Assembly: GCF_014204915.1 (NCBI RefSeq)
Contig: NZ_JACHMH010000001.1
Span: 930,001 to 994,000, forward strand
Length of the DNA: 64,000 bases
From: Crossiella cryophila
GTDB lineage: Bacteria > Actinomycetota > Actinomycetes > Mycobacteriales > Pseudonocardiaceae
Direction of reading: 5' to 3'
Shown here: positions 28,974 to 31,991 of the stretch, piece after piece
How positions within the stretch are numbered: position 1 is the first letter of the stretch
How the letters are laid out: every line of letters begins with the position of its first letter
Translations under genes and position numbers: made by a program
The notes under the pieces: generated by a model
Told to the model about the DNA's origin: nothing
Database searches by the model: none
Seen by the model: only the letters and a program-made list of their open reading frames with translations

Positions 28974-29658
28974 GATCGATCACTCCCAGGTCGGCGAGCA
29001 CCAGCTCGCGCAGGTGTGCGAGGTCGGCGCCCTCGGTCCGGTGCTCGGCGATGATGCGTCCGTCGGCGAGCACCAGGATCCGGTCGGCAAGACGCAGTGC
29101 CTCGTCGATGTCGTGGGTGACCAGCAGCACCGAGGGCCGGTGCGCCAGCCACAACTCCCGCACCAGGCGGTGCATGGCCAGCCGGGTCAGCGCGTCCAGC
29201 GCGCCGAAGGGCTCGTCCAGCAGCAGCAGGTCCGGCTCCCGGACCAGCGCGCGTGCCAGCGAGACCCGTTGCGCCTCACCGCCGGAGAGGGTCAGCGGCC
29301 AGGCGTCGGCGTGCCCGGTGAGCCCGACCTCGGCCAGTGCCTTGGCGGCCACCGTGGTCGCGTCCGGACGGCGCAGCCCGAGCGAGACGTTCTGCCCGAC
29401 CTTGCGCCAGGGCAGCAACCTCGGTTCCTGGAAGGCCACCGACACCGTGCCCGGCACGCCAGCCTCGCCGGTGTAGCCGGTGTCCAGCCCGGCCAGCACC
29501 CGCAGCAGGGTGGACTTGCCGGAACCGCTGCGCCCCAACAGTCCCACGAACTCCCCCGGCGCGATGTCCAGGTCGAGATCGTCCAGCACCACCCGTTCGC
29601 CGAAGACCTTCCGCAGCCCGCGAACGGTCAGTGCACCGTGGTCACGCTGTGCCGCCAT
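28957..29658 (-). CDS. ssuB: Aliphatic sulfonate ABC transporter ATP-binding protein
   Basis: A 233-residue ABC ATPase: Walker A GRSGSGKST (42-50), Q-loop in VSVAFQEPRLLPWRKV, signature LSGGEAQRVSLARAL, Walker B LLLLDEPFGALD and switch His in LLVTHDIDEAL. The LPWRKV sequence after the Q-loop is typical of the SsuB/TauB subfamily. ATG 29658 follows GGAGGG. The longer open frame upstream reads through ssuC in another frame and is not used. The first 31 nt overlap ssuC. Confidence 0.91.
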   Translation of the reverse strand: MAAQRDHGALTVRGLRKVFGERVVLDDLDLDIAPGEFVGLLGRSGSGKSTLLRVLAGLDTGYTGEAGVPGTVSVAFQEPRLLPWRKVGQNVSLGLRRPDATTVAAKALAEVGLTGHADAWPLTLSGGEAQRVSLARALVREPDLLLLDEPFGALDALTRLAMHRLVRELWLAHRPSVLLVTHDIDEALRLADRILVLADGRIIAEHRTEGADLAHLRELVLADLGVIDHELAR

Positions 29659-30407
29659 GCCAGTGCCCTCCTCTCCAGTGCCCGCACCAGCGCGTCGGTG
29701 CCAAGGCCGAGCAACGCGTAGACCAGCAGCCCGACCACGATCACGTCGGTGCGCAGGAACTCCCTGGCGTTGTTGATCAGGTAGCCGAGGCCGGCCTCGG
29801 CGTTGACCTGCTCGCCGATCACCAGCGACAGCCAGGCCACGCTGAGCCCCTGGCGCAGCCCGACCATGGTCTGCGGCAGCGCCGAGGGCAGCACCACGTG
29901 CTGGATCCGCTCCCAGCCGGTGTAGCCGAGCACCGTGGTGGCCTCGATCAGCCGCCGGTCCACACCGCGGATCCCGGCGTGCGTGTTCAGGTAGATCGGG
30001 AAGGTCACGCCGAGCGCGACCAGCGCGATCTTGGGTGCCTCGCCGATGCCGAACCACAGGATCAGCAACGGGATCAACCCGAGGAAGGGCAGCGTGCGCA
30101 GCATCTGCACCGGTGGGTCCACCAGCGCGTCCCCCCACCGGGACACCCCGGCGAGCAGGCCGAGGCCCAGTCCGGCGAACAATCCGATGGCGAAGCCGAG
30201 CACAACCCGTTGCAGGGACACCGCGAACGCGGTCAGCAGCTCGCCGCTGAGCACGAGTTCGACCGCGGAACTCAGCACGGTCAGCGGGGCGGCGAGTTTG
30301 TCCGGTGGCAGCAGGCCGGTGGTGCTGGCCAGCTGCCAGAGCAGGACGATCGCCACCGGGCTCAGCCAACGGCGTGGCCGTTTTTTGTCCACAGTGGACA
30401 CAGACAT
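29628..30407 (-). CDS. ssuC: Aliphatic sulfonate ABC transporter permease
   Basis: A 259-residue BPD-type permease with about six helices and the EAA loop in DRRLIEATTVLGYTGWERIQHVVLPSALP. The C-terminal region GEQVNAEAGLGYLINNAREFLRTDVIVVGLLVYALLG is typical of SsuC/TauC proteins. First structural gene of the operon: GGGAG lies 7 nt upstream of ATG 30407, and the leader peptide gene ends 86 nt upstream. A small GACGGC-CTTC-GCCGTC hairpin (30452-30467) lies in that leader. Confidence 0.91.
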   Translation of the reverse strand: MSVSTVDKKRPRRWLSPVAIVLLWQLASTTGLLPPDKLAAPLTVLSSAVELVLSGELLTAFAVSLQRVVLGFAIGLFAGLGLGLLAGVSRWGDALVDPPVQMLRTLPFLGLIPLLILWFGIGEAPKIALVALGVTFPIYLNTHAGIRGVDRRLIEATTVLGYTGWERIQHVVLPSALPQTMVGLRQGLSVAWLSLVIGEQVNAEAGLGYLINNAREFLRTDVIVVGLLVYALLGLGTDALVRALERRALAWRHSVTTVH

Positions 30408-30493
30408 GAAGGGGCTCCCGGACGCGGGGAGAACAAGGGCAGGCGAAAGCGGACGGCGAAGGCCGTCACGAAGTCAGAGCAGAAGGGAAAAGC

Positions 30494-30574
30494 TCAGCGC
30501 GGACAACAGAGGGCGCTGGCGTGCCGTCGCAGGTCGACGTGCAGCCGCGCAACAAGCTCCGTGCGCTGGGTCAT
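30494..30574 (-). CDS. Cys-Cys leader peptide of the ssu operon, 26 aa
   Basis: ATG 30574 to TGA 30494 encodes MTQRTELVARLHVDLRRHAS followed by ALCCPR. This matches the short putative leader peptides found upstream of sulfur-assimilation genes in actinobacteria, with basic residues and consecutive cysteine codons near the end. Known for related mycobacterial uORFs: ribosome progress over the Cys codons senses cysteine supply and controls the downstream genes. Here the tandem UGU UGU codons are codons 23-24, and 86 nt with a small hairpin separate the stop from ssuC. It appears leaderless: CAGGCT ends 7 nt before the ATG. Confidence 0.8.
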   Translation of the reverse strand: MTQRTELVARLHVDLRRHASALCCPR

Positions 30575-30580
30575 GAAAAA

Positions 30581-30629
30581 GAGCCTGACCGCCCAGCCGT
30601 GATCATGTCAACGGCGGGCGGTCAGGCTC
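30581..30629 (-). terminator. Intrinsic terminator of purA
   Basis: On the minus strand GAGCCTGACCGCCC (30629-30616), a 21-nt loop, GGGCGGTCAGGCTC (30594-30581), then CTTTTTC-like U-run; a 14-bp perfect stem 22 bp past the purA stop. The ssu leader promoter is nested inside it. Confidence 0.85.
30582..30611 (-). promoter_or_regulatory. Predicted promoter of the ssu leader, inside the purA terminator
   Basis: Perfect -35 TTGACA (30611-30606) in the terminator loop, 18-bp spacer, -10-like CAGGCT (30587-30582) in the descending stem. The predicted start site coincides with the leader peptide ATG at 30574. Confidence 0.6.
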
Positions 30630-30650
30630 CCAGTGTCCGGGATCGTTTGC

Positions 30651-31991
<1,341 letters not shown>

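Follow-up and report, generated by a model that had tools for sequence, protein, structure and literature searches.

Predicted Promoter of ssuCBAD Within the Putative purA Terminator Hairpin of Crossiella, Ahead of a Putative Cysteine Leader

Introduction

The leaderless polycysteine short ORFs of mycobacteria, treated by Canestrari et al. in 2020, reportedly act as cysteine-responsive attenuators. The locus described here, from Crossiella cryophila, resembles them in having a short ORF, predicted to be leaderless, with Cys codons close to its end and sulfur genes behind it, in the presence of several such ORFs per genome, and in the attenuation by ribosome stalling that is predicted for it. 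It differs from them in carrying one or two Cys codons instead of a run, in having its promoter inside the terminator of the upstream gene, and in the finding that no structure masking the Shine-Dalgarno (SD) sequence is common beyond the genus.

The existence of cysteine leaders upstream of cys operons was predicted by Seliverstov et al. in 2005 (PMC1262725), and such leaders have been detected in mycobacteria by ribosome profiling (PMC4633059); the available parts of both sources bear out the first-pass annotation of this DNA, according to which Cys-rich upstream ORFs before sulfur genes were already known. In the available text of PMC1262725, the leaders share with the present one the Cys codons near the stop and the lack of an attenuator-type terminator after them; unlike it, they belong to other genera and operons and have no nested promoter. 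The promoter is best compared with the leaderless promoters of Streptomyces lividans, for which the available part of PMC8079986 gives the hexamer rule TTGACn and a -10 with A2 and T6. Both hexamers and the ATG start are found here as well, while the T1 of TAnnnT, reported in that part in 63.8% of leaderless cases, is missing, and the sequence is, unlike in the cases presented there, common to a terminator.

The kind of leader is therefore already known, and it is the overlap of promoter and terminator that appears to be new and unusual. A literature search for promoters within terminators, in a collection with few subscription papers, found nothing relevant, which is weak evidence. With a probability of roughly 0.7, we hold that a cysteine-sensing leaderless leader ORF controls ssuCBAD and that in this genus its housekeeping-type promoter is superimposed on the purA terminator hairpin. 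One short sequence would then be under two separable constraints, as an RNA hairpin for purA and as a DNA promoter for ssu, and the overlap and its cost would become directly testable.

Organization of the Locus

The window, that is, the whole 64,000-nucleotide stretch of C. cryophila DNA that was analysed, carries on its minus strand, in this order, purA, a hairpin, a 26-codon ORF, ssuC, ssuB, ssuA, and ssuD (Table 1). The match of ssuC to its model (E 2.7e-74, 249.9 bits) lies under the cut-off of 347; among the named records listed, the nearest for SsuC is that of Crossiella sp. SN42 (92%). An Rfam scan of positions 30300-30800 gave four matches, every one far under the gathering score.

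Table 1. Features of the purA-ssu region, with positions in the window
Feature	Position	Strand	Basis or remark
purA, adenylosuccinate synthase	30651-31940	-	NCBIfam PRK01117 and TIGR00184, above cut-off
purA 3' hairpin, predicted intrinsic terminator	30579-30631	-	RNAfold -43.3 kcal/mol, z -8.33
GGGA box, candidate activator site, 20 nt 5' of -35	30628-30631	-	in 25/32 leaders
Predicted -35 hexamer TTGACA, hairpin apex	30606-30611	-	TTGACn spacing in 32/43 leaders
Predicted -10 hexamer CAGGCT (NANNNT), descending stem	30582-30587	-	NANNNT in 31/32 leaders
Leader ORF MTQRTELVARLHVDLRRHASALCCPR, 26 codons, TGT TGT as codons 23-24	30494-30574	-	NF042934
GGGAG, ssuC Shine-Dalgarno, predicted buried	30415-30419	-	computed P(unpaired)
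ssuC, sulfonate ABC permease; the operon's first main gene	29628-30407	-	top match PRK11365 SsuC
ssuB	about 29658-28957	-	SsuB top match, below its cut-off
ssuA	28973-27972	-	SsuA_fam, above cut-off
ssuD	27961-26858	-	SsuD top match, below its cut-off
Palindrome GTCCACNGTGGAC	30387-30399	+	in ssuC codons near the start

The Leader ORF and Its Family

The leader ORF, whose product ends in ...ALCCPR, scores 33.1 bits (E 2.8e-8; cut-off 27) against the NCBIfam model NF042934, named "putative leader peptide", and 31.4 bits against the same model in a six-frame search; against NF042936 (Ms4527A) it reaches 20.2 bits, under the cut-off of 45. Being a short ORF with Cys codons near its end and with ssuCBAD downstream, it has the make-up of a cysteine attenuator leader, and by family score and position it is a predicted member of a known actinobacterial kind. 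The earlier reading of a 26-codon leader peptide with consecutive UGU codons near its end, placed before ssuCBAD, is upheld by coordinates, codon positions, family score, and comparison. The ORF is retained in all five genomes of the genus that were compared and contains Cys codons in four; the UGU UGU pair itself holds for the window's own genome and for the congener G002, but the remaining two ssu-carrying genomes have one UGU at that place. Most of the relatives' leaders that are listed likewise have a single Cys codon at this position.

Leaders scoring above the NF042934 cut-off number six in this genome and are present in 55 of 60 genomes of the same taxonomic family and in 78 of 118 genomes of the class. 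Besides the one before ssuC in the window, the own-genome leaders precede sfnG (SfnG dimethylsulfone monooxygenase, above cut-off), a sulfite/nitrite-reductase-like gene, a dicarboxylate-type symporter-like gene, and a gene without family; the sixth stands at another ABC-transporter locus, identified by eye, where a permease resembling SsuC (36%) is encoded about 2 kb further downstream. Within the family, the network of leaderless cysteine leaders would thus extend to ssu, sfnG, and sulfite-reductase-like genes, with a common promoter signature.

A side observation concerns codon usage in 66 NF042934 leaders (L004-L009 and L109-L168), made up of 60 of the best-scoring listed places of two samples and the six from this genome. 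TGT encodes the conserved last Cys in 50 of them (30/30 in the class sample, 20/36 in the remainder), while the other Cys codons of the same ORFs comprise 59 TGC and 16 TGT (Fisher p 6e-11). The downstream gene was scanned for seven TGC leaders, and four of these, like the TGT leader L164, were found to stand before sulfite/nitrite-reductase-like genes. Folds had further suggested that the codons for RLHVDLRRQA form a stem, and codon choice looked constrained; upon synonymous recoding, this leader-internal hairpin was rejected as a common feature, with a mean z of -0.20 over the 66 leaders (z -2.45 for the window's own leader).

The Promoter

Upstream of the leader ATG (30574), TTGACA is followed by an 18-nt spacer, CAGGCT, and 7 nt, the hexamers and their distance being as in the first-pass annotation. 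TTGACn, the A2 and T6 of the -10, and their spacing are those of a leaderless promoter of the housekeeping sigma factor; the T1 of the -10 is absent, and CAGGCT is a poor match (2/6) to TATAAT. A simple scan called neither a promoter nor a minus-strand terminator at the locus, because it demands at least four of six matches per hexamer and a loop no longer than 8. Within the 64 kb, the pattern TTGACN, 16-18 nt, NANNNT, 6-8 nt, RTG occurs twice (0.43 expected), and it was found at least twice in 6 of 100 shuffles; taken alone it is weak, and it is the comparative data that make the predicted promoter convincing.

These data come from 43 distinct HVDL-type leaders in fetched loci of the same family, found by DNA similarity to the window's spacer, by purA neighbourhood, or among the own-genome HMM matches, after removal of one false leader (from L009) out of 44. 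TTGACn is located 29-32 nt upstream of the leader start in 32 of the 43, the window and congeners included, a count that is non-independent since many of the leaders are closely related. NANNNT follows at a spacer of 17-18 in 31 of these 32, against a shuffle background of 9.1% for the range 16-19. The leader start codon was partly picked by its distance to TTGAC; an independent count, anchored on the conserved HVDL codons, places 35 of the 42 TTGAC occurrences within the upstream 140 bases at a distance of 66-72 nt. A strict -35 is missing in 11 of the 43 leaders, at least two of which (L004 and L077, the latter being the same place as L136) precede symporter-like genes.

By this conserved spacing, the earlier placement of the start site on the leader ATG is supported, and a leaderless transcript would probably begin at 30574. 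In L038 and L088, the leader is lost and the in-frame ATG of the first operon gene (ssuD or ssuC) stands at promoter distance, a placement that would fit a start site on the ATG regardless of the ORF present. The loci L044 and L047 retain the promoter before a short ORF without the HVDL motif. Further upstream, a GGGA box is found 17-22 nt from the -35 in 25 of the 32 leaders, against a shuffle background of 3.7%. The window has this box and the congeners L019 and L020 lack it; it is possibly a binding site for a sulfur activator.

The Hairpin and Its Conservation in the Genus

The hairpin had been described as a 14-bp purA terminator containing the promoter. The nesting and 14 perfect outer pairs (30629-30616 with 30594-30581) stand, but the structure is longer, extending from 30631 to 30579, with a U-run at 30580-30576. 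None of 200 shuffles reached so good a folding energy. The RNAfold structure has one bulge and a small internal break; TTGACA, which had been assigned to the loop, does lie at the apex but is partly paired.

Among the five genomes of the genus, which have four distinct hairpin sequences, 6 of 24 pairs are changed on both sides, and 97.9% of the cells of the alignment pair, while a control with a slid partner gives 0-1 such changes. The hairpin is thus stable and kept by compensatory change, as befits an intrinsic terminator, on the basis of only four distinct sequences, and the covariation is supportive rather than conclusive. Directly after the stem, the window and G002 have a TTTTT run and G001 has TTTT; only CTTGTC follows in G003 and G004, for which intrinsic termination is less sure. 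In the window, purA transcription is predicted to end at this hairpin.

At sequence level, the predicted promoter is nested in the purA hairpin and this arrangement is kept in the genus. All 9 pairs involving a base of the -35 or -10 are invariant in the ssu-carrying congeners, compared with variation in 7 of the 15 others (p 0.019), or in 6 of 15 without the indel (p 0.037), in a comparison that was chosen post hoc and covers three distinct ssu-carrying sequences with 7 variable pairs, one of them variable by indel. The fifth genome, G001 (L021), has no ssuC orthologue; its best match is 37%, against 92-98% in G002-G004, and within 4.8 kb behind purA there is no ssu match. In this genome TTGACA has become ATGACA, CAGGCT has become CAAGCT, and the leader has no Cys codon, while the hairpin is intact, both promoter changes being matched by partner bases. 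The change in the -35 is the informative one, because CAAGCT still fits NANNNT. The leader of G001 seems to have decayed, and the constraints on hairpin and promoter appear to be separable. The ssuC-less congener, having kept the hairpin and lost TTGACA and the Cys codons, is a natural control, although one genome amounts to one natural experiment.

Origin of the Nested Arrangement

That the nesting is unusual had already been proposed, together with a comparison of spacers from relatives. This comparison covered 22 TTGAC-containing purA-ssu spacers, drawn from seven other genera of the same family, and agrees with the proposal, as no strong stem encloses both the -35 and the -10 in any of them. 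A stem scoring at least 10 is located upstream of the -35 in 19 of them, and L044 and L088 have weak stems only. Partial overlap is seen in L043, where a 16-pair stem starts from the last base of the -35 and covers the -10; L028, L047, L050, and L052 have weak stems of 6-8 pairs around the -35. Of 80 named ssuC loci that were sampled, 10 have purA, leader, and -35 in place, and the only nested one is a Crossiella locus, possibly from the same organism as G003. The nested arrangement looks derived, and in the simplest history the purA terminator would have been re-formed, in the ancestor of the genus, over an ssu promoter that was already there.

Proposed Mechanism and Alternative Explanations

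In the proposed scenario, RNA polymerase leaving purA would halt in the U-run. As this run ends 1 nt ahead of the predicted ssu start, both transcription units would abut. A second polymerase would recognise TTGACA and CAGGCT, at the apex and in the descending arm of the hairpin, and would begin ssu transcription on the A of the leader AUG. As no SD sequence is seen upstream of the leader ATG, leaderless translation would be needed, performed by a 70S ribosome; a readthrough transcript from purA would carry the hairpin and would probably translate the leader poorly. When Cys-tRNA is short, the ribosome would pause on UGU and ssu expression would rise, which is the presumed cysteine response of the leader. 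Eventually, the stalled ribosome would either open the RNA that hides the ssuC SD or block Rho.

Since termination and initiation share one DNA sequence, interference between purA readthrough and ssu firing is possible, while the mutual exclusion of the two suggested by the first-pass annotation is conjectural. A stronger version, in which polymerases ending purA halt over the ssu -10 and start, so that high transcription for purine synthesis represses sulfonate use and the bases co-evolve, is unlikely. If it were true, sulfur and purine supply would be coupled via one 50-bp sequence, and the strengths of purA termination and of the ssu promoter would be forced to evolve together.

Alternatives to this scenario concern either the promoter-hairpin overlap or the function of the leader. 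The least probable of them is that the hexamers are in the hairpin by chance and that leader and ssu are transcribed by purA readthrough or from another promoter. It could draw on the two pattern occurrences where 0.43 are expected and on the simple scan, which called no promoter, but in genera whose terminator lies elsewhere, -35 and -10 still stand at the conserved distance from the start codon, and the -35 is altered in the congener without ssuC. The palindrome might instead be mainly a DNA operator of a sulfur regulator and not a terminator, for which an inverted repeat of 20-odd bp spanning -35 to -10, as well as the missing of a good U-run in two congeners, would be suitable; co-change of the arms with pairing kept in 6 of 24 pairs, however, is easier to reconcile with RNA pairing than with an invariant protein-binding site, and with the palindrome also persisting in G001, which has no ssuC, an operator is very improbable. 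That the leader ORF has lost cysteine sensing and merely couples translation to ssuC would accord with the single Cys codon of most leaders listed and with the lack of an HVDL-type leader in 8 of the 22 purA-ssu spacers outside the genus; with UGU kept in all four ssu-carrying genomes of the genus and absent in G001, it is improbable. We therefore keep to a cysteine-sensing leader, for which the last step before ssuC may take one of two routes.

On the SD route, the probability of the window's ssuC SD being unpaired is computed as 0.03 in the free RNA; a ribosome on the Cys codon raises this to 0.17, and one on the stop codon to 0.19. In all four ssu-carrying congeners, access rises from 0.03-0.05 to 0.13-0.25 with a ribosome on Cys, and in two of the four the stop-codon ribosome opens the SD equally (G000 0.19, G002 0.22). 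In eight other spacers, stalling barely changes SD access (five) or lowers it (three). Beyond the genus, general SD masking is thus unsupported, and in two of the four congeners it lacks specificity for stalling. It is nevertheless placed slightly ahead of Rho, because mycobacterial work favours SD masking, and for no other reason.

On the Rho route, which has the same architecture and a last step that is transcriptional, the C-rich and G-poor RNA after the stop codon would load Rho once the leader is finished, and a ribosome stalled at UGU would mask this RNA. This is a tentative alternative, less likely than not, with both the mycobacterial work and the buried SD of the four ssu-carrying congeners speaking against it. 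In its favour, computed SD access does not clearly prefer stalling, and C outnumbers G in the post-stop spacer in all 12 cases measured (13 given, one without a recognised SD), a figure confined to leader spacers. Rho had also been proposed for terminator-less cys leaders in 2005, a prediction called "rather weak" in the available text of that paper (PMC1262725).

A Palindrome within ssuC

Apart from the hairpin, the first codons of ssuC contain a short palindrome (Table 1). It has 504 copies in this genome and 359-520 in four congeners, against 0-1 for the backward-read control. Across 50 genomes of the family, its copy number ranges from 1 to 660 and that of the control from 0 to 3, a few of the genomes showing no excess. 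The palindrome resembles what we take to be two overlapping convergent DnaA boxes.
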